DNA from: Phycisphaerae bacterium | Lineage (GTDB): Bacteria; Planctomycetota; Phycisphaerae; UBA1845 | Direction: 5' to 3' | Length of the DNA: 64,000 nucleotides | Assembly: GCA_028289375.1 (NCBI GenBank) | Contig: JANQQK010000023.1 | Span: 1-64,000, forward strand | In this document: positions 17,906-31,647 of the stretch, piece after piece | How the letters are laid out: each line of letters starts with the position of its first letter | How positions within the stretch are numbered: the first letter of the stretch is position 1 | Translations under genes and position numbers: made by a program | The notes under the pieces: generated by a model | Database searches by the model: none | What the model was told of the DNA's origin: nothing | The model's input: the letters and a program-made list of their open reading frames with translations, nothing else

Positions 17906-20590
17906 ATGAAGGCCAGCCGCAGAATCACATGCGCATGCGCAGCAGTCATCGTGGCCACAACATTCGCCATCGCTCAGCAGGCTGACCAACCTGTGAGTCC
18001 GCTCACGGTCACGCAAGAATCAACGCCGCTCGGCGATAACGCGCTGCTTTCCACCGGCCCCATCATGTGCACAGGCGACGCAGACTGCTACTTCGCGGCC
18101 GTCAATGCCGCCAATGGGTCCGGTGGCTTGGCGTCCGACTTTCTCGACGTCTGCGATTACCACTACTGCAACAACGGCGTGTGCGACAGTTGCGAAAGGC
18201 GATTCGGCAACACAGTACCGGTGTACAACGCACTGGTTCAAGGCGTTGACGTTCTCTGCGGCGCATCTGGTTTCGTGAACTACTGCTTCTGCCCCAGCGC
18301 GGATTCGTGGGATGCTCGATCGGTCGACAACCGCGGCCCAAGCGGCCCACCGCTCGGTGTGGACGACATCTCCGCGCTGGTGAGAGCATTCGGGGGAGCG
18401 GTTTTCTTCGACTGCCCGATTCCGGATCCCATGTCGAACTGCGACCTCGAGGACATCGTTCCACCACTGGACCAGAACATCAGCGAGAACGCGAATTGCG
18501 GTCCCGCCTGTTTCGTGGACGCAGATTGCGCCGACCAGTCATACTGCAACGGCGAGGAGACATGCGTCGAAGGGCGATGCAAGAAAGGGAATAACCCATG
18601 CAGCCCGCTTGCATGCAGCGAGGATACCGACCGATGCGGCGCATGTGTCACGGATGCGGACTGTGGCGATGGACGCTTCTGCAATGGCGAAGAAGTGTGT
18701 GACGTAATGGGACAGTGCACCAAAGGCGATCCACCATGCCCATCCAACATCGCCTGTGATGAGTTGAACAATCTCTGCTCGGGATCAAGACGTCTGTTTC
18801 TCGTCCCCGCGGGCATGAACCCCTTGTTGGCCACGTCCGGACAAGACGTCGCGATCGACCCTGCTCCCGGTGCGGTTGTATCCGTGGAAGCATATCTTGA
18901 GGACCCAGAAACCCGAACCCACGCCTATGAGTTCGCCATGGGGTGTACCTACGCAAGTGCGGCGACAGATGCCGGGGAAATCCAGTTTGTCGATGGAAGC
19001 ATGGCCATCGATGATGAGCGATCAGACTACTATTTTGATGATTTCCCATCGTTCATTGTCCTCGACGAAGGACAATGCATGATGGAACAACCATGTACAG
19101 ACAACAACGATTGCTGGGAAGATTGTGGCAGCCTCTGCCTGCCGAGTGGCTTCTGTTCGATCACCCCGGCGCGCGCCGGCGCCGTGTCGCTGAATCCAGG
19201 CGCACCGGCCCCGCCCGGACGGCGATACATCGCCAATTTTCAATTACAGATACCGATTGAACCCCTGATCGGCCGATACACCATCCGCCCCATCTGCCCC
19301 GAAACAGAAGCGTGCACCGCCACGCTCACACGTACAATCGATAGCGTTCCAATCGAGCAGCTCCCCGTCCTCGTCAACGGACTCGAGATTGACCGCCGCA
19401 CCGTGTGCTGCGACGGAACCGCCATGACCTGCCAGCAGGACGTGTTTCAGTCCGACTGTCCATCACCTGCCGTTTGGCTCGAACAACAGGACTGCGACGC
19501 TGACTGCAACGACAACGGCTTGGCTGACATCTGCGACATCGTCATCGGCAACAGCAACGACTGCAATGCCAACGACATCCCCGATGAATGCGAAACCCAA
19601 ACCTGCACCCGCGATTGCGACTGCTACCTCAACGCCACGGCAGGCGGACCGGACATCTGCGATCCCACCAGCCTCATCGACATCTGCGATTACACCTACT
19701 GCGACATTCCGCAAGGCCAAATCGAAGGCAACTGCACATCCTGCAGACGACGATACGGCAATACATGTGATTCCTTCGCTGGGTTCGTACAGACGAATGA
19801 CATCCTTTGCGCAGTAGCCGGATTCGGAAACTACTGCGCATGTCCCAACGCGGACCTTGTCAACGCGAAGGCGCCCGGATGCCAGTCCGGGATTTTCAAT
19901 GCAAACTGCAAGGGGCCAAGTGGCTCACCACTCGGGACCGATGACATCATCGCCGTCGTGGGCTCATTTGGCGGAGCAAACCCATACCCTTGCTCAACAC
20001 CCAACGATGACACGTGCGACGACAATCCACCGCCGTCAGCGGGCGGTTGTGGTCCCGCATCCTTGGCAGTTGATGGTCCATCAGCGGCCGCATCATCACA
20101 CGCAGTCCACGACGTTGTCGTACGCAGATCGTCCTCCGCGACTCTGCAGATCGTTCCACGCGAGCGTTCGATCCGCGCAGATGGCCAACTCGCGGTGGAC
20201 ATCTTCGTCACCGACGTAGAAGGACTCATCGGATACGAATTCGGCCTATCGACCATCGGCGGCAAACAGGGAGCGCTGTCGCTGCACGCGGTGAACGTCG
20301 ACACCGATCGCAACGATTACGTCTTCGACGGCTTGGCCAACTTCCCAGCCATCGACGAGGAACTGGGTCGCATCGGCGGCGTCGCCATGGACGCTGGTGT
20401 CACGGTGAGTCAAGGCAAACGCGCCTACCTCGGTACGTTCACATTCACCGTCCCCGACGACGCCCGCGGCGCGTTCAGTCTTCAACCTTCCACCGAATTC
20501 GTCGCCCTGTTCACCAGCGGCGGTCAGCAATCGGTCGGCACGGTCGACGATGCCATCGTGTTCGTTACAGGTGGATCAAGTCGAAGGTAA
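17906..20590 (+). CDS. Large secreted Cys-rich multidomain protein with cohesin-like C-terminus
   Basis: An 894-residue exported protein with about 70 Cys. Order: signal peptide (1-24, cut near AIAQQ); an unrecognised Cys-rich module (55-178); two CNGEExC units (202-296); a beta-rich domain starting RRLFLVPAGMNP (296-497) that is shared with the protein at 34532-35455; a DCNDNG/DCNAND calcium-type repeat (528-562); a second, better conserved copy of the module (567-700); and a C-terminal domain (743-890) of the 'ADGQLAVDIFVTDVEGLIGYEFGL' kind that resembles cohesin or choice-of-anchor domains. It ends SSRR with no membrane anchor. GGAGAGGGA precedes the ATG. The domains suggest an extracellular, disulfide-rich adhesion or scaffold protein; the function is unknown. 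Its closest relative in the window is 22280-24400. Confidence 0.85.
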   Translation: MKASRRITCACAAVIVATTFAIAQQADQPVSPLTVTQESTPLGDNALLSTGPIMCTGDADCYFAAVNAANGSGGLASDFLDVCDYHYCNNGVCDSCERRFGNTVPVYNALVQGVDVLCGASGFVNYCFCPSADSWDARSVDNRGPSGPPLGVDDISALVRAFGGAVFFDCPIPDPMSNCDLEDIVPPLDQNISENANCGPACFVDADCADQSYCNGEETCVEGRCKKGNNPCSPLACSEDTDRCGACVTDADCGDGRFCNGEEVCDVMGQCTKGDPPCPSNIACDELNNLCSGSRRLFLVPAGMNPLLATSGQDVAIDPAPGAVVSVEAYLEDPETRTHAYEFAMGCTYASAATDAGEIQFVDGSMAIDDERSDYYFDDFPSFIVLDEGQCMMEQPCTDNNDCWEDCGSLCLPSGFCSITPARAGAVSLNPGAPAPPGRRYIANFQLQIPIEPLIGRYTIRPICPETEACTATLTRTIDSVPIEQLPVLVNGLEIDRRTVCCDGTAMTCQQDVFQSDCPSPAVWLEQQDCDADCNDNGLADICDIVIGNSNDCNANDIPDECETQTCTRDCDCYLNATAGGPDICDPTSLIDICDYTYCDIPQGQIEGNCTSCRRRYGNTCDSFAGFVQTNDILCAVAGFGNYCACPNADLVNAKAPGCQSGIFNANCKGPSGSPLGTDDIIAVVGSFGGANPYPCSTPNDDTCDDNPPPSAGGCGPASLAVDGPSAAASSHAVHDVVVRRSSSATLQIVPRERSIRADGQLAVDIFVTDVEGLIGYEFGLSTIGGKQGALSLHAVNVDTDRNDYVFDGLANFPAIDEELGRIGGVAMDAGVTVSQGKRAYLGTFTFTVPDDARGAFSLQPSTEFVALFTSGGQQSVGTVDDAIVFVTGGSSRR
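18068..18439 (+). repeat. Coding copy 1 of the RYGNTC Cys-rich module
   Basis: Residues 55-178 of the 17906 protein. Recognised by DCYFAAVN, VCDYHYC, CDSCERRFGNT, a Cys-Gly loop, and GPSGPPLGVDDISALVRAFGG. It is the most diverged copy and lacks the Cys after GNT and part of the DCDCY start. Confidence 0.7.
19604..20005 (+). repeat. Coding copy 2 of the RYGNTC Cys-rich module
   Basis: Residues 567-700 of the 17906 protein. Recognised by CTRDCDCYLNA, DICDYTYC, SCRRRYGNTC, GFVQTNDILCAVAGFGNYC and GPSGSPLGTDDIIAVVGSF. It is closer to the copy at 23489-23839 than to copy 1 in its own protein. Confidence 0.8.
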
Positions 20591-20745: not shown

Positions 20746-22050
20746 ATGCGCCGACAGATCGTCCACGCCGGAGCCGGAAGCCTCAAATACGAAATCCGCG
20801 AGATCATCGGCTTCGCACACGCCGTCGAAAACCTCGGCTGCGATCTCATCTGGGAGAACATCGGCGACCCTGTGCAAAAGGGCGAAATGCCCCCCGATTG
20901 GATCCGCGACATCGTGCACCAGCACGTGGACCAATCCGAATCGTGGGCCTACTGCCACTCCGCCGGCGTGCCCACCACTCGCGACTTTCTCGCCCAATCC
21001 GCCAACGAAAGACCCGACAGCGTCCAACTCACCGCCGATGACATCATCTTCTTCAACGGCGTCGGCGACGCCGTCTCCAAGGTGTACAACTACCTCCCCC
21101 GCGAAGCGCGAATCCTCGGCCCATCACCCGCCTACAGCACGCACTCCTCCGCGGAAGCGGCCCACTCCGGGTACCAGCACCTCACCTACCATCTTGATCC
21201 CAACAACGGCTGGCTGCCCGACGTCGACGAAATTCGCAACAAGTGTAAGTACAACGATTCCATCGCCGGCATCCTCCTGCTCTCACCGGACAATCCTACC
21301 GGCGCCGTCTATCCACGCCCCCTTCTTGAAGACATCGCCGAAATTGCCCGACAATATGGCCTCTTCCTCATCTCCGACGAAATCTACGCACACATCGTCT
21401 ACAGCGGCCAACCCCATCTCCACATGAGCGAGTGGATCGGGGATGTTCCCGGCATCGCCATGCGCGGCATCAGCAAGGAATATCCCTGGCCCGGTTCGCG
21501 CTGCGGCTGGATCGAAGTCCTCAACCGCAAGTCCGACCCGCTCTTCGACGAATACGTCGAGAGTCTCATCGCCGCCAAACGCCTCGAAGTCTCATCCACC
21601 ACCCTGCCCCAACTCTCCATCCCGACGGTCTATTCAGACCCGCGCTACCCCACCCACCTCGCCAACCGCGAAGCAATGTTCGAAGCCCGCGCAACAGAAG
21701 CAGTGAACATCCTCTCAGAATCTGACGCCATCGTTGTCAACAAACCCGGCGGCGCGTTCTATCTTACCGTCACGTTCAAGCCTGACGCCCTCAACGACCG
21801 GCAGGTCCTGCCCACCAACAACCCCGAACTCGACCGCTTCATCGCCGATCAGGTCGACGGCGTCTCCCTCGACAAACGCTTCGTCTATTACCTCATCGCC
21901 GCCACAGGCATCGTCGTCGTCCCCCTCACCGGCTTCCATTCCAAGCTCCTCGGCTTCCGCGCCACCATCCTCGAACACAACGACGCCAAACGAAAGCGAA
22001 TCTACGAAACCATCCGCGACGCCATCAACATCTACACCAACATGGCATGA
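20746..22050 (+). CDS. Pyridoxal-phosphate-dependent class I/II aminotransferase
   Basis: A 434-residue fold-type I aminotransferase. The PLP-binding Lys is Lys244 in RGISKEYPWPGSRCGW. The cofactor phosphate and substrate loops are SPDNPTGAVYP (~180) and the Asp-bearing 'LFLISDEIYAHIVYS'. The 'SKEYPWPGSRCGW' pattern belongs to a subgroup of about 430-450 residues whose members are mostly uncharacterised; the amino-acid substrate cannot be read from the sequence. The ATG at 20746 is preceded by GGGGA at 8 nt; an in-frame ATG 48 nt upstream has no such site. It lies between the two large Cys-rich proteins on the same strand, but with its own leader and no overlap, so a functional link is not shown. 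Confidence 0.88.
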   Translation: MRRQIVHAGAGSLKYEIREIIGFAHAVENLGCDLIWENIGDPVQKGEMPPDWIRDIVHQHVDQSESWAYCHSAGVPTTRDFLAQSANERPDSVQLTADDIIFFNGVGDAVSKVYNYLPREARILGPSPAYSTHSSAEAAHSGYQHLTYHLDPNNGWLPDVDEIRNKCKYNDSIAGILLLSPDNPTGAVYPRPLLEDIAEIARQYGLFLISDEIYAHIVYSGQPHLHMSEWIGDVPGIAMRGISKEYPWPGSRCGWIEVLNRKSDPLFDEYVESLIAAKRLEVSSTTLPQLSIPTVYSDPRYPTHLANREAMFEARATEAVNILSESDAIVVNKPGGAFYLTVTFKPDALNDRQVLPTNNPELDRFIADQVDGVSLDKRFVYYLIAATGIVVVPLTGFHSKLLGFRATILEHNDAKRKRIYETIRDAINIYTNMA

Positions 22051-22279
22051 ACACCGTACGTCACCGACGCAACATCGCGCTCGGTTTCATGACACCCTGA
22101 CCCCCAAAAACAAAAAACCCTTAGTCCCGCCTGCGGGCAACAGGTACCATGGGATCTCAGTTCGTTCGGGTGCACGACCACCAAGACCTGCCGGACAGGC
22201 CGATTCACACCAGCGTGGCCGGTGCACCAAACAAGAGTCCGTCGGCGATCCGACCGACATCACGAGAAAGGGACACATC

Positions 22280-24400
22280 ATGCGCGCATCAAACCGCACC
22301 CTCATGACGCTGATACTCGCCCCGTGCACCGTCGCCATCGCACAAGAAACGACTGTCCAGAACGACACGCTAATCGGCGGATCAGGCGGCAACATTCAAG
22401 CTGGTTTCGTGGCGGGCGAAAGTGCAGCCGCATGGCTGACGTCACCATGCGATGGAAACATCGTGGCTGTTCAGGTCTTCTGGAGATCCTTCCTTGGCGG
22501 TGCACCCCAGTCGATCGAAGACTCGATCACAATCTTCGACGCTGGGAGTTTTCCAACACCAGGCGGTGTGCTCTTGACAGAGTTCGGGCAACTGGCCGAG
22601 ATCATTGGACCCGTCATGACCGACGGTGTCATCAACGAGTTTCGGTTCCTCGACGAAAACATGACACAGCCACTCAGCGTGCCCATCCTCACGAACGACG
22701 CCTTCGTCGTGTCCTTCAAGTTCCTCAATTCACCGACCGCGTTCACCCCCAGCGTCGTCACCGATACCAACGGCTGCCAGTCCGGACGCAACGGCGTATT
22801 CGCAGTGCCGGGCGGTTGGTTCGACGCGTGTCTGCTCGGCGTGACCGGAGATTTCGTGATCCGCGCCGTCGTCGACTGCAATCCCACCCAGGCCTGCTGC
22901 TTCGATGCCGATAGCTGCGTGGACCTCACAGAAGACGACTGCATGACGGCCAGCGGTTTTCCTCAAGGGGCCGGGACGGATTGCGATACCGTCGACTGTT
23001 TCCCGGAGGGAGCATGCTGCATGGCGGACGGCACATGCGCTGACCTCAGCCCTGAAGACTGCGCCTCAATGAGCGGATCCTACCAGGGAAACGGAACCGA
23101 ATGTGCCCTTGTCAAATGCGTCCAACCCAGCGGCGCCTGCTGCCTGAGCAATGGCAACTGTCTGTTCCTTCCCGAAGCAGATTGCACCGCCATTCCCAAC
23201 GCCAACTGGGCCGGTTTCGGAACCGATTGCTCCGATGGCGACATGAACATGACCGCCGATGCGTGCGAAACCGGATTCTGCGGCGATGGCACCATCGACG
23301 CAGGCGCGGGTGAGGAATGCGACGACGGTTCGGCCAATTCGGACACCACGCCCGACGCCTGCCGAACCGATTGTACACTTCCGATATGCGGTGACGGCGT
23401 GACCGACACCAGCGAAGACTGTGACGACGGCAACACAAAGGACTTTGACGGTTGTTCATCCATTTGTATTCATGAAACAATTTTTGAAACGTCCTGCACT
23501 CGGGACTGCGACTGTTACTTCAATGCGGTCGACAACGGCGATCCTTTTGACGTATGCGATTACCATTACTGTGATCGGGAAATCTGCACGTCGTGCACCC
23601 GTCGATACGGCAACACATGCGCCTCCTTCGGCGGATTCGTGCAGACCTCCGACATCCTTTGCGCTGTTACCGGTTTCGGAAACTACTGCGCTTGCCCCAA
23701 CGCCGATTTCATTGCACCAGGAGGAACGAAGGGACCAAGCGGCTCACCGATTGGTACGGACGACGTCCTCGCCATCGTCGGCGCTTTCGGCGGTGAAAAT
23801 CCGTTCGACTGTCCCGTTCCGGATCCCGCAACCTGCGACGATACCCCGCCGCTGACGGCAATGGGTTGCGGCCCGACCGCTGCCAACGAGTGGGACGAAA
23901 ACGCGATGCTCGACGGGATCATGAGCGAACCCGTCGCGCCTTTCACAACAGCCACGCTCACCATTCAACCCAGAACCCGAACGGTTTATCCCGGGGGCGC
24001 CATGGAAGTCGACATTTTCGTCACCAACGTCTCCGGTCTCGCCGGCTACGAGTTTGGACTCGCCGCCATCGACAGTGACAACCGTGCCATTCAGAACCCT
24101 TATGTGTATGTCCAGACACAACGCCGCGATTATGTCTTCAGCGGATTGCCCGCTTTCCCGGCATTCGATACGGAACTGCTACGGATCGGCGGCGTTGTCA
24201 TGGACGCCGGCGTCACAACCGCGATGGGTGAACACGCCTACCTCGGCACCTTCATTTTCCAGGTCCCGGATGAAACCCGTGGCACCATCACCATCAAGTC
24301 GGTAGCGGAATTCACCGCGCTCTACAGCCACCTCGGCCAACAGCGCATACACCCCGTCGCCGAAGCCACGGTCATCATCGCAGCTCCATCCCGGCGATAG
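22280..24400 (+). CDS. Large secreted Cys-rich multidomain protein, paralogue of 17906
   Basis: A 706-residue exported protein. A signal peptide ends near AIAQE. Residues 25-200 form a beta-rich domain (SPCDGNIVAVQVFWRS ... GVTGDFVIRAVVDC). Three GACC-type Cys units follow (204-240, 244-280, 286-318), then two CGDG...CDDG units of the DUF4215 kind (334-397). One copy of the RYGNTC module (404-520) and the cohesin-like C-terminal domain (555-705) complete it. The last two are shared with the 17906 protein, and both proteins end in SRR. An in-frame open stretch continues upstream to 21734 but lies antiframe to the aminotransferase. The ATG at 22280 with GAAAGGGA before it is the real start. Likely extracellular; ligand unknown. 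Confidence 0.85.
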   Translation: MRASNRTLMTLILAPCTVAIAQETTVQNDTLIGGSGGNIQAGFVAGESAAAWLTSPCDGNIVAVQVFWRSFLGGAPQSIEDSITIFDAGSFPTPGGVLLTEFGQLAEIIGPVMTDGVINEFRFLDENMTQPLSVPILTNDAFVVSFKFLNSPTAFTPSVVTDTNGCQSGRNGVFAVPGGWFDACLLGVTGDFVIRAVVDCNPTQACCFDADSCVDLTEDDCMTASGFPQGAGTDCDTVDCFPEGACCMADGTCADLSPEDCASMSGSYQGNGTECALVKCVQPSGACCLSNGNCLFLPEADCTAIPNANWAGFGTDCSDGDMNMTADACETGFCGDGTIDAGAGEECDDGSANSDTTPDACRTDCTLPICGDGVTDTSEDCDDGNTKDFDGCSSICIHETIFETSCTRDCDCYFNAVDNGDPFDVCDYHYCDREICTSCTRRYGNTCASFGGFVQTSDILCAVTGFGNYCACPNADFIAPGGTKGPSGSPIGTDDVLAIVGAFGGENPFDCPVPDPATCDDTPPLTAMGCGPTAANEWDENAMLDGIMSEPVAPFTTATLTIQPRTRTVYPGGAMEVDIFVTNVSGLAGYEFGLAAIDSDNRAIQNPYVYVQTQRRDYVFSGLPAFPAFDTELLRIGGVVMDAGVTTAMGEHAYLGTFIFQVPDETRGTITIKSVAEFTALYSHLGQQRIHPVAEATVIIAAPSRR
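23489..23839 (+). repeat. Coding copy 3 of the RYGNTC Cys-rich module
   Basis: Residues 404-520 of the 22280 protein, with about twelve Cys. Recognised by CTRDCDCYFNA, VCDYHYC, CTSCTRRYGNTC, SFGGFVQTSDILCAV, FGNYCACPNAD and GPSGSPIGTDDVLAIVGAF. Confidence 0.8.
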
Positions 24401-24539: not shown

Positions 24540-24929
24540 ATGTCAAACACACCCAATCGCCCCAACCCCGCCCAGTGGCTCATCGCGATCAGTCTCGCCG
24601 CCATCGCACTGACGCTGCTCATCAGAACCGACAACCCCATCCTCCCCGAAGCCGACGCACAGGTAACCCGTTCCGGCGGCGCACGCGGCATCTTTGCCTT
24701 CAGCACCCAGTTCTGCGAAAACTCGAATGGAATCTGCATGGTCGATGTCGACACCATGACCCTTTGGTGCTACGAATACGTCTGCGGCACCAAGAAGCTC
24801 CGCCTTCTCGGGAACCGGTCTTGGATGTACGACCGCTACCTCGAGAATTTCAACATCGACGGGCCGACCCCACAGGAGGTCCAACGCCTTGTCGATCAGG
24901 AGCGGGAAGCCAAGTTGCGCAACCGCTAA
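24540..24929 (+). CDS. Small membrane-anchored or secreted protein of unknown function
   Basis: A 129-residue protein with no family I can name. After a short polar start, one hydrophobic segment (residues ~13-27, WLIAISLAAIALTLL) acts as a signal anchor. A secreted part of about 95 residues follows, with four Cys spaced FCENSNGICM and LWCYEYVCGTKK, enough for two disulfides. A charged C-terminal helix (PQEVQRLVDQEREAKL) ends it. The protein ends 112 nt before the HTH membrane protein and may be functionally tied to it, but the candidate promoter between them suggests separate transcription. Confidence 0.65.
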   Translation: MSNTPNRPNPAQWLIAISLAAIALTLLIRTDNPILPEADAQVTRSGGARGIFAFSTQFCENSNGICMVDVDTMTLWCYEYVCGTKKLRLLGNRSWMYDRYLENFNIDGPTPQEVQRLVDQEREAKLRNR

Positions 24930-25041: not shown

Positions 25042-26256
25042 ATGGCCAAGATGTTCTACTCGCTCGAAGAAGCCCTCGAAAAGCTAGGCTGCGACGAGTC
25101 CACCCTCAAAGCCGCGGTCCGTGACGGCAAGCTCCGTGAATTCCGTGACGCCGGCAAGGTCAACTACAAGTCCGACGAGATCGACAAGCTTGCCGCAGAT
25201 TCCGGCGGCGGTGCGGGCACACCGCCTCCGCCACCACCCGCTGATGACGCCGCCTCCGACACAGGCCCCCTCAAGCTCGGCGATGAATTGGAACTTTCCG
25301 CGAGCCTTGGCCCCATCGGTCTTGCCGATACTGGCGCCGATACAGGCGCTGACAACCCCTTCCCCGATCTGACATCCGCAGGCAGCGGCGCCGGCGCTGA
25401 ATCAGGCGGGAGCATCGGCCTGGGCGACAGTTTGGGCGACAGTCTGGGCGAGATTGGTCTTGCCGACACCGGCGTCAATCTTGGCGGTTCCGGTTCTGCA
25501 CCGGGTCCTCCCGGCCTTGCCGAAACCGACATCGCCGCGGAAACAACGTTCAACCTTGCCGATACCGGCGACATGGGCGATCAGGTCAGCATCGAGGAAC
25601 CCGACAACGCCTCCTCCGGCAACAAGAAGGACGACACCGTCGTAAGTTCCGTCGGCGTCAGCGTTTTCGACGAAGAAGAAGTCTCGGACGACGACCCGAT
25701 GGCCAAGACGGTCCTGACCGGCACGGCTGGTGGGACTGGTCTTGAAGGCGTCGGCAGCGGCTCGGGGCTGCTCGACCTCACGCGCGAAAGTGATGACACC
25801 TCGCTCGGCGCGGAGTTGCTCGACGAAATTTACCCCGGCGGTGATGAAGGCGCCACCGTCGAAATGGGCGAAGCCACCCGCGCCGGTCTCGAATCCGCCA
25901 TCCCCGACGAAACCCCTGCCGGCGGCGAACCCGTGACCGAGGATGCATTCCAGCCGGCAGACCCTGGCCCTGCGTCCGTGGCAGCGACCGCGGCCGCCCC
26001 GTCGCGCACGGTCGTGACACAGACGATCGAATACGCGCCCGATGCCTTCGCCAACGGCGCGACGGGCATGCTCGCCGTCGCCCTGCTCATTATGGTTTTC
26101 ACCGGCTTGCCCATCGCGGCTGCGCTTGGCAATACGTGGCCCTCGATTCTTGATTTTGTTTATGGTAAGCTCTGGATGTTTGGTGCGGGCGCGTTGGTTC
26201 TGTCCGGCGCCGCCTTGGGACTTGGCATCTTCCTCGGAAAACGCTCCGGGGGCTGA
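25042..26256 (+). CDS. MerR/excisionase-type HTH protein with disordered linker and C-terminal membrane segments
   Basis: A 404-residue protein. Residues 1-52 match the small winged-helix DNA-binding fold of MerR/excisionase proteins: MFYSLEEALEKLGCDESTLK, then VRDGKLREFRDAGKVNYK. A long acidic, Gly/Ser/Thr-rich and probably disordered linker follows (~55-310), with imperfect repeats of 'GLADTGxxxG' and 'GDSLG'. Two hydrophobic segments near the C-terminus (~338-360 and ~370-395) should place it in the inner membrane. The layout resembles a membrane-tethered DNA-binding protein; whether the HTH truly binds DNA is unknown. AAGGGAAG precedes the ATG. An OmpA-like lipoprotein gene follows after 142 nt. 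Confidence 0.75.
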   Translation: MAKMFYSLEEALEKLGCDESTLKAAVRDGKLREFRDAGKVNYKSDEIDKLAADSGGGAGTPPPPPPADDAASDTGPLKLGDELELSASLGPIGLADTGADTGADNPFPDLTSAGSGAGAESGGSIGLGDSLGDSLGEIGLADTGVNLGGSGSAPGPPGLAETDIAAETTFNLADTGDMGDQVSIEEPDNASSGNKKDDTVVSSVGVSVFDEEEVSDDDPMAKTVLTGTAGGTGLEGVGSGSGLLDLTRESDDTSLGAELLDEIYPGGDEGATVEMGEATRAGLESAIPDETPAGGEPVTEDAFQPADPGPASVAATAAAPSRTVVTQTIEYAPDAFANGATGMLAVALLIMVFTGLPIAAALGNTWPSILDFVYGKLWMFGAGALVLSGAALGLGIFLGKRSGG

Positions 26257-26398: not shown

Positions 26399-27265
26399 GT
26401 GCGTTTGGCTCCGTCGTTTCTGACCATCGTTGCGTCTGCCATGATCTTCACCACCACCGGATGCGTCAGCCTCCAGGTGCATGAACATGTCAAAATGGAC
26501 AACCGCAAACTCAAAGCCGAAAAAGAGCAACTCCAGCAGGAACTTTTTGACGCCCGCGCCGTCGCCGGCTCGCTGCGTGATCGTTCCGACTCGCTCGAGC
26601 AGCAGCTCGGCACCAAGGATCAGATTGTTGCCAACTTGAAGCGTGAGAATGACGGTCTCGAACAGAAGTTCAATCGCTGCCAGGAAATCGCGAAAGGCAT
26701 CGCCGAAATGCCCATCCCAGCGGTCACCCTCTCCGCACAACTGCCCGAGGAACTGGACAGCGCCTTCCAGACGTTCGCCGCCCAACACCCTAACCTCGTG
26801 GTCTACGACCGCGAGCATGGCAGTATCAAATGGACATCAGACCTGCTCTTCGCGTTGGGCAGCGACGTGGTCAAGAAGACAGCCGCCAATTCCATGATCG
26901 AATTCACCGAGATCATGCGTTCCCCCGCGGCCGCCAACTTTGATGTCTTCGTCGTCGGCCACACCGACAACGTTCCAATTCGCCGCGAAGCCACGCGTAA
27001 GCTCCACCCGACCAATTGGCACCTGTCGACCCACCGTTCGATCGCCGTCGCCAAGCTGCTGCAGAAGAATGGTCTCAACGCCTCGCGTGTCGGCGTGGTC
27101 GGCTTTGGTGAGCATCGCCCACTCGTCACCAACGACACCAAGGAGCACCAGGCCCGCAACCGCCGCGTCGAAATGTACATCATGCCCACCGGCGCGTTCG
27201 CCGTTGGCGCCAAGCCGGGCATCCAGGCGATGGCGATTACCGGACAGGAAAAGTCCGACAACTAA
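26399..27265 (+). CDS. OmpA/MotB-domain lipoprotein with coiled coil
   Basis: A 288-residue envelope protein that probably bridges outer membrane and peptidoglycan. The GTG at 26399 has a near-perfect AAGGAGG 5 nt before it. The signal peptide ends in the lipobox TTTGC. Residues ~35-110 form a heptad-rich coiled coil (LKAEKEQLQQELFDAR ... LKRENDGLEQKFNRC). The OmpA_C domain (~150-265) shows the peptidoglycan-binding core: FVVGHTDNVPIRREA, the LSTHRSIAVAKLL helix, and GFGEHRPLVTNDT followed by RNRRVEMYI. The combination of coiled coil and OmpA domain is seen in planctomycete and MotB-like proteins. Confidence 0.88.
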   Translation: MRLAPSFLTIVASAMIFTTTGCVSLQVHEHVKMDNRKLKAEKEQLQQELFDARAVAGSLRDRSDSLEQQLGTKDQIVANLKRENDGLEQKFNRCQEIAKGIAEMPIPAVTLSAQLPEELDSAFQTFAAQHPNLVVYDREHGSIKWTSDLLFALGSDVVKKTAANSMIEFTEIMRSPAAANFDVFVVGHTDNVPIRREATRKLHPTNWHLSTHRSIAVAKLLQKNGLNASRVGVVGFGEHRPLVTNDTKEHQARNRRVEMYIMPTGAFAVGAKPGIQAMAITGQEKSDN

Positions 27266-27468: not shown

Positions 27469-29793
27469 ATGAGCAACGCCCCATCGGCCAAGAAGTCCAA
27501 GGGTCTCATCGACTACCTTTTCTACAGCTGGGCGAACAACGTCTGGTTCGGCATCGCTGTCCTGATCGCCATCTTCGTCTACAGCTCCGTCGGGAGTGCC
27601 ATCCCTTCCCTTCGCCAGCATCCCTTCTTCGACCTGACCGAAATGGGCTGGTTTCACTGGTGGCCTTTCGATCTGATGATCGCCCTGCTGGTGATCAACA
27701 TGACCACCGTGACCCTGAAACAAATCCCGTTCAAGCTCATCAACGCCGGCGTCTGGACCATACACACCGGCATCATCATTCTCTGCTTTGGCAGCGTCTA
27801 CTACTTCGGCACCAAGCTCGAGGGCGACGTGCCGATCTTTCGCCGCAGTGTCGAGATCAGCGTCCCTGGAAAGACCGAACCGGTCTCCCTTGTCGTTCGT
27901 CCCGGCAACATCGTCTCCACGGAAGGCGCCGACGGTGAATACACCTTCGCCGTCTCACAGACATTCCCCGAGTGGGTCATCGCGTCGGGCGACGACGCGG
28001 GCAAGAAGGCGTACATGGCGTGGATCGACGTCAAGCCCCCCGGACGCATCAACTACACCCGACAACTTCTGGACGGCTATCCCGAGTACACCGAGGACAT
28101 TCTCCCCGATCGAACGCGGGCCAAGAAGACGCTCGGACGCCAACTCGTCGACGACTCGGTTTCGATGAAACTCGCCTACGAGCCTCAGACCGAGTTCTTC
28201 CTGATGCATTCCGCGTCCATCTTCGTCCGCGAGACGGAGAGTGATCGGTGGGACGAACGCCCCGTCTATGACATGCCCCACTACAACGACCACATCGGCG
28301 ACCACGACGACGTCATCATCTCGCCGGAGCAACGCGAGCCGATTCCACTCCGACCCATCAACCTCGAAGCACCGCCGAAGGATGGCGGCACTGATGCACT
28401 CTCCGACTACGACGTCCGCGTCACCGCCTACCTTCGCTACGCCAGCCTGATCCCGAAGTGGTCCGACGGCGGCGACACGCTGAATCCGATCATCGGTATT
28501 TCGCTCACGGCCGGGACTGCCCGAAACACGTTTGAATTGATGGCCCTCGACGACCGGCGAAACACCACAGCCAACGGACTGGTCACGTTCAAGTGGGTCG
28601 AGTCGCGCGACGCCGTTGACCGACTCGCCGCATCACCTGTGGATTTGCTTACTTTCAAGGTTCCAGGTACCGACATCGTCCTCGAAGTGCCGATCACCGG
28701 CCCCAACGATGAGTACGTCCCCATTGCGGGTACCGAATTCGCGTACAAGATCAAATACGTCGTGCACGACCTCGCCATCCCCAGCGGGCCCAACACCGGC
28801 AATGCGATGTCGGTCGCCATCGTCGACATCCGCACGCCCGACGGCGAAATCTCACGCTTCGTCGCCAGCGAGCCAACAGCCACACGCGATGTCGTCGGGC
28901 AAGGCGAGATGGGCGACCCGTCACCCGCCATCGACGTCCAATTCATCCCTGGCAACACCGCACGCATTACCCTGATCGCCGGCCCCGAAGGCGTTGGCAA
29001 CTGGGTCCTCTTCAACGAAGGGAGCGTCATCGACAAGCATGAAATCACGGTTGGTGACGCCATGCCCGTCACGCCACAGATCAACCTGACCATCGACTAC
29101 CTGCACAGCCACGGCGTCGACGCGAGCAAGCCGATGATCGTCCCCAAGCACCAACGTCAGAGCAGTGCCAAGGAGTTTTTCTCCATGGTCCGTCTCGAAA
29201 TCAGCAAGGACGACTGGACGGAGTCTGTGTGGCTTCCGTTCAATCGCTATGCGCTGCCAAGCAACCAATATGTCGTGCCCCGTCGCATCATCTTCCGCCC
29301 AACCGATTTGAGGCTGCCGGATGGGAAGACCGTGCAGGTCTGCTACTCGCGCAACCGCCATCCCCTGCCCGCACCGATCGCCCTTGAGACCTTCGATCTC
29401 GCCACGCACCCGGGCGGATACACCGGCTCGACCATCACCGTGAGCGATTTCATCAGCAAGCTCCGCTTTGGAACCGACGACGGTTGGTCGGACGAAATGC
29501 AGATGAGCTCCAACAAGCCCGCAACCCATGGCGGCTTCTGGTATTTCCAGTCGCAATGGGATCCGCCCGGTGAAGGGTCTGCCGGGATGAACTACACCGG
29601 CGTCGGCGTCGGTAACCGCAACGGCGTCTACATCCAGCTCTTCGGAACCGCCGTTGCTGTCGCGGGCATGATCTTCGCGTTCTATTTCAAGCCGATCATC
29701 CGGCAAAAGGCCCAGCAGAAGGGCCGCCAGCGTAAGGAAGCAGTGACCGAGTCAAGCATCGCCCAGCAGGCCGAGCCTGTCGGCGTTGCGTAG
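27469..29793 (+). CDS. resB: ResB-like cytochrome c biogenesis protein
   Basis: A 774-residue inner-membrane protein of the ResB/CcsB family, part of the system II machine that delivers heme and attaches it to apocytochrome c outside the membrane. Three hydrophobic segments lie in the first ~115 residues (IDYLFYSWANNVWFGIAVLI, FDLMIALLVINMTTV, VWTIHTGIIILCFGSVYYFG). The large external domain (~120-730) is longer than in typical ResB proteins of about 450-550 residues. A final TM precedes the Lys/Gln-rich tail. The ATG at 27469 follows AGGAACGCC; an upstream ATG adds a basic, unlikely extension. The gene is 24 nt upstream of ccsA, its known partner. Confidence 0.85.
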   Translation: MSNAPSAKKSKGLIDYLFYSWANNVWFGIAVLIAIFVYSSVGSAIPSLRQHPFFDLTEMGWFHWWPFDLMIALLVINMTTVTLKQIPFKLINAGVWTIHTGIIILCFGSVYYFGTKLEGDVPIFRRSVEISVPGKTEPVSLVVRPGNIVSTEGADGEYTFAVSQTFPEWVIASGDDAGKKAYMAWIDVKPPGRINYTRQLLDGYPEYTEDILPDRTRAKKTLGRQLVDDSVSMKLAYEPQTEFFLMHSASIFVRETESDRWDERPVYDMPHYNDHIGDHDDVIISPEQREPIPLRPINLEAPPKDGGTDALSDYDVRVTAYLRYASLIPKWSDGGDTLNPIIGISLTAGTARNTFELMALDDRRNTTANGLVTFKWVESRDAVDRLAASPVDLLTFKVPGTDIVLEVPITGPNDEYVPIAGTEFAYKIKYVVHDLAIPSGPNTGNAMSVAIVDIRTPDGEISRFVASEPTATRDVVGQGEMGDPSPAIDVQFIPGNTARITLIAGPEGVGNWVLFNEGSVIDKHEITVGDAMPVTPQINLTIDYLHSHGVDASKPMIVPKHQRQSSAKEFFSMVRLEISKDDWTESVWLPFNRYALPSNQYVVPRRIIFRPTDLRLPDGKTVQVCYSRNRHPLPAPIALETFDLATHPGGYTGSTITVSDFISKLRFGTDDGWSDEMQMSSNKPATHGGFWYFQSQWDPPGEGSAGMNYTGVGVGNRNGVYIQLFGTAVAVAGMIFAFYFKPIIRQKAQQKGRQRKEAVTESSIAQQAEPVGVA

Positions 29794-29817
29794 GACACAG
29801 AATCAAGGCATTTGACG

Positions 29818-31647
29818 ATGACCGAATACCTTCCACAGATCCTCGCAGCCCTGTTCGGCACAATCGCGTTTGGGTTCCTTCTCGCCATGTTCCCGGCACG
29901 CGCACGCAAGATCACCGTCGATGTGCTCGTCGTCGGACTCATCGGCTACATCATCTACAGCAACACCGTCAACCGCGCCCCCGCCCCCGAGCCGACCCCC
30001 TTTGCCCAAGCCGTCGACATCGAAGCCCTCAACAACCTCGCCGTGCAGAACGATGGGCGCCTGAAGTCCTTCAGTTCGTTCTCGCGCAAGATGATGCGCT
30101 TCGTCAGCGGAAGACACTCGATCGCCGGTCAGCCACACGCATTTACGTACATGGACATGATGTTCCGCCCGAAGGCGTACGAGGATGCTGACGTCATCTA
30201 CGTCAAGCACAAGGACCTTCGCGGCATGATCACCGACACGCTCCTGGCCGAAAACGCCGCGGAACACAGCGTGCTCGAATCGTTTATGGAGTCGGGACTT
30301 ATCGCGCCATCGCTGCTAAAGCGACCATCCGTAACCGATCTTCTTGATCGGCTTGAACGCGACCTCATTACCACCAACAAGCAGGTCGGATTCGTCCGCT
30401 CCGCGCTGACCGTTTCCGATGCGCGGACGCTCGCGAACAACTTGCGCGTCGTTCCACCGCCGTCCGGCGACGACCATGCTGCGTGGTTCCTTATCGGTGA
30501 TGCACTCCCAGCCTCTGCCGCGCCCCATGACCACACGCACTCCGGCGTTCAACGATCGTCCGGCATCCCGGGGATGCCCGCCGACACCACAGCCAACATC
30601 AACACGAACTGGAACAAACTTGGTTCCGCCTGGCAGGCGCAGGACGCAGACGCTGCCAACGCCGCACTGGCATCGCTGGCCGGCGCGCTCCGCTCGGTCG
30701 CACCGACTCTGTATCCGCCCGACGACAAGCTTGAACTCGAAAGCTGGTATTTCCGCAACTACAGCATGACGTGGATCTGGGTCGTCTACCTGGCCGCGAT
30801 GATCCCACTGCTTATCGGGTTCGTGTACAAATGGCGGGGCGCGAACATGATCGGCATCGCGTTCTTCCTGGTCGCATTCGCCCTGCACACGACATCGCTC
30901 GGCATTCGATGGCACCTTTCAGGACGCATCCCCAACTCGAACATGTTCGAAGCCATTGCCGCCGCAACCTGGTTTGGCGGCGTCATCGCCTTCGTTCTCG
31001 AGTTCATCGTCCGCAAGACCACGATGCGCAATCTCTTCTTCCTTGGATCAGCCGCCGCATCCATGACGGCCTCCATGTGCAGCAGTTTCATGCCCGTCAC
31101 GCTCGCCAGCGACATCGACAACATCATGCCGATCCTGCTGCACAACGTCTGGCTGTACATTCACACGAACATGATCATTGCCAGTTATTGCACCATCGCG
31201 ATCGCGGCCGTCACCGCCCTGCTCTACCTGCGCGACCGTATCGGTGGTTCCAGACCCGACCACGCCGTCCTCGGCGGCGCGGGTTCGCTTGTCATGAGCA
31301 ATCACCCCAGCGCCAAATTCGTTCGCGGCGACAACGCCTCCACCGCCGCCGTGCTCGACGGAGCGACCATGGTCATGATGGAATTCTCCTTCGTCACCCT
31401 CTGGGCCGGCCTCGTCATGGGCGCCATCTGGGCGGACCAATCCTGGGGCCGTCCGTGGGGTTGGGACCCGAAGGAAGTGTTCGCCCTCAACACGTTCATC
31501 ATCTTCCTGCTGCTCGTGCACGTGCGTTTCAAGGTCAAGGACAAGGGTCTCTGGACCGCCATCCTTGCCGTCATCGGTTGCGGGGTCATGCTCTTCAACT
31601 GGATTGTCATCAACTTTGTCATCACCGGGCTGCACAGCTACGCGTAG
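29818..31647 (+). CDS. ccsA: Cytochrome c biogenesis protein CcsA/ResC
   Basis: A 609-residue polytopic protein that exports and presents heme for cytochrome c assembly with ResB. The diagnostic tryptophan-rich WWD motif is present as QSWGRPWGWDPKEVFAL near residue 540, and conserved His residues lie in flanking helices (HNVWLYIHTNMI). The C-terminal half carries the usual eight or so TM helices. The N-terminal ~300 residues add two TMs and a soluble region with a His-rich patch (PHDHTHSGVQ) that is not part of the core family. The ATG at 29818 is preferred over the TTG two codons upstream. Confidence 0.92.
   Translation: MTEYLPQILAALFGTIAFGFLLAMFPARARKITVDVLVVGLIGYIIYSNTVNRAPAPEPTPFAQAVDIEALNNLAVQNDGRLKSFSSFSRKMMRFVSGRHSIAGQPHAFTYMDMMFRPKAYEDADVIYVKHKDLRGMITDTLLAENAAEHSVLESFMESGLIAPSLLKRPSVTDLLDRLERDLITTNKQVGFVRSALTVSDARTLANNLRVVPPPSGDDHAAWFLIGDALPASAAPHDHTHSGVQRSSGIPGMPADTTANINTNWNKLGSAWQAQDADAANAALASLAGALRSVAPTLYPPDDKLELESWYFRNYSMTWIWVVYLAAMIPLLIGFVYKWRGANMIGIAFFLVAFALHTTSLGIRWHLSGRIPNSNMFEAIAAATWFGGVIAFVLEFIVRKTTMRNLFFLGSAAASMTASMCSSFMPVTLASDIDNIMPILLHNVWLYIHTNMIIASYCTIAIAAVTALLYLRDRIGGSRPDHAVLGGAGSLVMSNHPSAKFVRGDNASTAAVLDGATMVMMEFSFVTLWAGLVMGAIWADQSWGRPWGWDPKEVFALNTFIIFLLLVHVRFKVKDKGLWTAILAVIGCGVMLFNWIVINFVITGLHSYA

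Follow-up and report, generated by a model that had tools for sequence, protein, structure and literature searches.

RodZ is a one-chain membrane protein with a cytoplasmic helix-turn-helix (HTH) domain and a role in the envelope; its HTH binds MreB, and a periplasmic domain follows its membrane helix. RacA and RocS join a DNA-binding head to a membrane-binding C-terminus through a coiled-coil middle and an amphipathic helix (RocS as outlined in PMC11500499). Other HTH proteins are reported to bind protein. According to PMC7968930, actinobacterial SepH, a soluble protein with an HTH of the DUF3071 family followed by an unstructured part, uses its HTH to bind FtsZ and not DNA. CbpM, which is small, soluble and dimeric, contains a coiled coil and has a J-domain as its partner; PMC4063869 describes its MerR-like fold as adapted to bind protein, with an interface that is acidic and without DNA-binding residues. 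FimV/HubP are reported to be membrane proteins whose cytoplasmic region is long and acidic, to have a peptidoglycan-binding partner function and to be linked to envelope machines (PMC12918733). Their LysM and TPR domains lie in one chain. Planctomycetota have unusual envelopes, reportedly divide in the absence of FtsZ (PMC12283558) and keep a large share of essential genes functionally blank, about 20% in the report on P. limnophila (PMC10632474).

Here, we report a membrane-tethered HTH protein of 404 amino acids (25042..26256, + strand) from a Phycisphaerae bacterium, found in a 64,000-nucleotide stretch of DNA (the window) and read from an ATG at 25042 to a stop codon at 26254-26256. Fold, charge, motif conservation, membrane segments and gene linkage were determined computationally. 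The best reading is that of an inner-membrane scaffold (hub or adaptor) in an envelope module, to which we give an even chance. The protein differs from RodZ in the class of its HTH, from RacA and RocS in its acidic linker and true membrane helices, and from SepH in HTH family and in its membrane anchor; the likeness to CbpM is one of fold only. Unlike FimV/HubP, it has an HTH head, a C-terminal anchor and a separate OmpA protein that would supply peptidoglycan binding, and LysM and TPR are absent, HTH_17 being the sole Pfam match in the entire protein up to E 1. No sequence relation to FimV/HubP was found or is claimed; we propose only that the protein may work like them.

The chain consists of an acidic winged HTH (residues 1-52; 25042..25197, + strand), an acidic disordered linker (residues 57-334; 25210..26043) and two membrane helices (residues 335-363, 26044..26130, and 377-403, 26170..26250). 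AlphaFold2 modelled the two membrane helices and a short helix between them (368-375) with high confidence, left about residues 57-334 without structure, and gave structured parts only for the HTH and the membrane helices, with no far-side sensor domain. Hydropathy placed hydrophobic segments at 344-362 and 380-398 and scored two membrane segments in 44 of 45 class members (three in the remaining one). The first-pass annotation had described a MerR/excisionase-type HTH at the N-terminus, two C-terminal membrane segments and membrane tethering, all of which agree with the HTH_17 match (residues 5-51), the winged-HTH model, the hydropathy and the modelled membrane helices. It had also described the linker as acidic and of low complexity; the acidity stands (54 D+E against 7 K+R in residues 57-334), and the low complexity does not hold for residues 238-263, where conservation in the family is highest. 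All parts of the 404-residue protein are conserved across the class, which excludes chance. Some class orthologues (6 of 45 members; for example L019, L032, L039 and L040) have a histone-tail-like, K/R/P/A-rich C-terminus beyond membrane helix 2.

The gene is a core gene of the class: a profile (A1) matched all 148 class genomes with completeness of at least 90%, part of these matches spanning the profile only partially in one piece. The whole protein was matched in 57 of 60 relatives (own genome counted), and the named relatives are mostly Phycisphaerae MAGs. The gene is single copy in its own genome; no paralogue there was convincing, the HTH profile hitting one place only up to E 10. Across the phylum (Planctomycetota), 198 of 246 genomes matched, a count uncertain in both directions, as the gene-bearing genome G192 was missed and certain out-of-class matches span little beyond the HTH. 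Among the genomes listed, at least five from a single family (f55), all 99-100% complete, were without a match. The order of HTH, acidic linker and C-terminal membrane segment was found in all 28 out-of-class homologues examined, which were drawn from the better matches. Acidic residues outnumbered basic ones in each of their linkers (28/28), barely so in L187 (20 versus 18), and each had one C-terminal membrane segment, as against two in class members. Larger HTH_17 proteins of the relatives were considered as further members of the scaffold group and dropped, their sequences reading as sigma-factor-like and B12-type MerR-like. This is a deeply conserved planctomycete family for which no description was found; the literature search covered titles and the starts of abstracts.

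Sequence profile and fold both place the head in the HTH_17/MerR-excisionase winged-HTH superfamily. Residues 1-56 alone matched HTH_17 (PF12728) at E 7e-6 with 26.6 bits, just below the cut-off of 27 bits, and 52 of the 53 members of alignment A2 matched PF12728 at E<=0.01. Modelled separately with AlphaFold2, residues 1-56 gave a winged HTH over about residues 1-54 (pLDDT 87). HiNmlR, BldC, Xis, SoxR and CarH headed the list of fold neighbours, the highest Z being 7.8 (53 residues); Z values of 6-8 are tied and could reflect a common arrangement. These neighbours are MerR-type and excisionase domains, mostly DNA-binding, with the protein-binding CbpM among them (3ucs; Z 7.2, 56 residues). 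Foldseek returned no match at E<=0.001 (best E 3.6e-3), and a viral structure library yielded short phage HTH proteins only, none at E<=0.001. The sole strong PDB match of the HTH profile, 8vd6 ("CAP REPEAT"), is a repetitive protein and was judged unrelated; the next plausible match, phage Xis 4j2n, reached only E 0.16.

The first-pass annotation proposed a DNA-binding protein, and the charge of the head speaks against this. Net HTH charge in the 45 class members ranges from -5 to +1, is zero or below in 43, and goes with a median pI of 5.0, whereas the 30 best-scoring HTH_17 domains from related genomes (one identical pair among them) range from +1 to +9 with a pI of 10.0, and 20 lower-scoring ones from 0 to +8 with a pI of 10.6. 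A rank test of class against comparator charge gave p of about 1e-10, on sequences that are non-independent. Position 24 in the recognition helix is basic in 23 of 29 comparators (79%) versus 2 of 45 class members, and position 41 in the wing in 27 of 29 (93%) versus 3 of 45; most class members lack the basic contacts and the positive domain of DNA-binding MerR and excisionase proteins. Outside the class, position 24 is still basic in 23 of 28 homologues and position 41 in all 28, although net HTH charge is zero or below in 26 of 28. Loss of DNA-contacting residues in homologues, which the first-pass annotation had named as the finding that would count against it, is thus evident within the window's class and incomplete in the phylum at large. 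The ancestor of the family may have touched DNA, because the out-of-class homologues retain the two basic positions. Given the acidic charge of the HTH and the loss of both positions in the class, DNA tethering seems the weaker reading and protein binding the stronger.

The best-surviving alternative is a chromosome-membrane tether like RacA or RocS, in which the HTH would bind DNA non-specifically and the hairpin would anchor it. RocS (PMC11500499) and RacA (PMC6593407) are reported to share the order of DNA-binding head followed by membrane anchor; RacA and a Par-protein DNA-binding domain stand among the fold neighbours (5i44, Z 6.4; 8csh, Z 6.5), R24 and K41 are kept outside the class, and the K/R-rich tail past membrane helix 2 could touch DNA. 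That tail is missing from 39 of 45 class members, however, the HTH is acidic and the linker very acidic, and the basic positions are lost within the class. The membrane part of a RacA/RocS-type protein is present, and the charge makes DNA binding unlikely; chromosome tethering by the window protein is weakened, and we regard it as unlikely overall.

The scaffold reading draws on the neighbouring genes. Directly upstream on the same strand lies a gene (24540..24929, + strand) for a small protein of 129 amino acids with an N-terminal membrane segment (residues 10-28 by hydropathy) and a conserved domain of about 90 residues; the protein matches no Pfam entry at E values up to 10. This gene, absent from the first-pass annotation, adjoins the HTH gene on the same strand in 23 of 33 class loci (window counted) and was not found in the other 10. 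The linkage reaches well outside the class: the small gene lies upstream at a constant position in 13 of 28 out-of-class loci (E 1e-12 to 6.5e-4). An insensitive reverse search with the small protein alone matched 7 of 119 genomes. Among its five out-of-class matches, those in G096, G208 and G192 lie directly upstream of the HTH gene, G192 also having an OmpA gene at that locus; those in G165 and G060 do not, and G165 has a secretin-like gene nearby.

Downstream on the same strand (26399..27265, +) lies an OmpA-family gene of the peptidoglycan-binding type (PF00691, E 6e-17, 62.2 bits against a cut-off of 27.2). The gene starts with GTG. Its product has a coiled-coil-like N-terminal half and is probably a lipoprotein: the hydrophobic N-terminus ends in TTGC, a weak lipobox-like site. 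This gene adjoins the HTH gene on the same strand in 20 of 33 class loci (window counted; not adjacent in 13) and in 12 of 28 out-of-class loci, with an OmpA gene 7.7 kb upstream in two further loci. The pairing of the HTH gene with its neighbours is real and not universal. The earlier suggestion that HTH and OmpA proteins link chromosome, membrane and wall is supported in its OmpA pairing and its membrane part, while its chromosome part is weakened by the HTH charge. No promoters were found between the genes in the window, and terminator-like sites between genes showed no excess (5 versus a shuffle mean of 3.6).

Outside the class, the locus sometimes stands near pilus and secretion genes. 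In 10 of 31 out-of-class loci, which represent 9 families, T2SSF precedes it on the same strand at a distance of 2.9-7.9 kb (9 of 28 when three loci fetched via the small gene are dropped), T2SSE ATPases upstream in 8 of 31 and a histidine kinase upstream in 9 of 31. Ten loci (L093, L094, L192, L193, L196, L198, L199, L200, L201 and L242) run, by our reading of the sequences, from T2SSE/T2SSF through a histidine kinase and the small gene to the HTH gene and, often, OmpA; several of them have ksgA-, dnaG- and rpoD-like genes farther downstream. At L200, Pfam confirmed T2SSF, three T2SSE (one with MshEN) and a HisKA/HATPase kinase; the label PilT at this locus is our own reading and not from Pfam. 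Within the class of the window this link breaks down, T2SSF occurring in none of 33 loci within the stretch read. Because of this, the linkage to pilus or type II secretion genes is either ancestral or lineage-limited.

The same kinases bear on a second alternative, a one-component membrane-bound transcription regulator (ToxR/CadC-like) or a regulator under the upstream histidine kinase seen in other families. The HTH_17/MerR-like fold and the HisKA/HATPase kinases at 9 of 31 out-of-class loci are consistent with it. The model of the window protein, however, has no sensor-type domain beyond the membrane such as the extracytoplasmic one of ToxR/CadC, the DNA-binding charge is lost, and 32 of 33 class loci have no such kinase alongside, the one match (L069) lying at +5.1 kb on the opposite strand. 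We consider this alternative quite improbable. The case carries a warning: fold alone is insufficient for annotating HTH proteins as regulators.

In Phycisphaerae, the scaffold would have a docking site of its own in the linker. Conservation was scored on 45 class sequences from whole-protein searches, 29 of which came from the 30 highest-scoring genomes out of 57; one row (L007) was left out because a contig end truncates it. Mean pairwise identity was 0.84 over residues 238-263 (GSGSGLLDLTRESDDTSLGAELLDEI; 25753..25830, + strand), compared with 0.50 for the HTH, 0.49 for a second conserved linker stretch (residues 195-224, ..VGVSVFD..DP.A.T..; 25624..25713, + strand), 0.25 for the remaining C-terminal linker and 0.28 for the membrane part. 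Such slow change in a region modelled without structure, slower than in the folded domain, would point to a short linear binding motif. All 45 class members contain a loose pattern of the motif, T253 and S254 are invariant in all 45, and T223 is invariant in alignment A3. A motif-peptide search found the motif in 38 of 40 relatives; a second carrier per genome was sought and discarded, each genome having one strong place, with three stray matches at E 0.75-0.94. A set of 63 named proteins was retrieved using the motif as search pattern, which biases motif counts from that set. No piece of the motif occurs in any of the 28 out-of-class proteins; it is class-specific. Its core, DDTSLGAELLDEI, loosely resembles the phosphorylated ETTS-motif region of GarA/OdhI. 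That the motif might be phosphorylated and then recognised by an FHA-type domain, with the protein serving as a kinase-signalling scaffold, is the least probable alternative and a very doubtful one: invariant Thr/Ser in an acidic context (T223, T253, S254), the loose likeness to GarA (phosphorylated ETTS motif reported in PMC12321487) and the reported control of the RocS HTH by phosphorylation (PMC11500499) favour it, but the motif has no solved relative, its only PDB match being a designed protein at E 0.014.

For the inner-membrane scaffold, we propose the following arrangement. The winged HTH would lie at the N-terminus on the cytoplasmic side, converted from DNA binding to mainly protein binding; the long acidic linker would give this head reach into the cytoplasm and, in Phycisphaerae, would carry the class-specific binding motif. 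The C-terminal hairpin would anchor the protein in the inner membrane. HTH protein, small membrane protein and OmpA lipoprotein would form one envelope module, as a physical complex in which the OmpA lipoprotein grips peptidoglycan. By analogy with FimV/HubP in gammaproteobacteria, the module may ancestrally have been tied to type IV pilus or type II secretion machinery. A bolder version, which we hold only tentatively and think rather unlikely as a whole, is that the small membrane protein, the HTH scaffold and the peptidoglycan-gripping OmpA lipoprotein make up an ancient, phylum-wide trans-envelope hub that places and assembles this machinery; a transcription-factor fold would have become a protein-docking head, and the 26-residue motif a docking site for a universal Phycisphaerae client. 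A single-copy gene matched in every near-complete class genome examined, with an architecture fixed phylum-wide and two linked envelope genes, offers a handle on envelope organisation.

Cytochrome-c assembly genes were the next most frequent real neighbours (9 of 41 and 8 of 41 loci). Downstream in the window, 27469-31647 holds such a pair, a CcsA-type gene (PF01578, E 7e-29) with a ResB-like partner that matched only weakly (E 0.083). Upstream, 17906-20590 and 21734-24400 encode two large cysteine-rich proteins with, by eye, a similar C-terminal region. At about 34000, GC skew flips sign from about -0.17 to +0.22 between neighbouring 2-kb steps.
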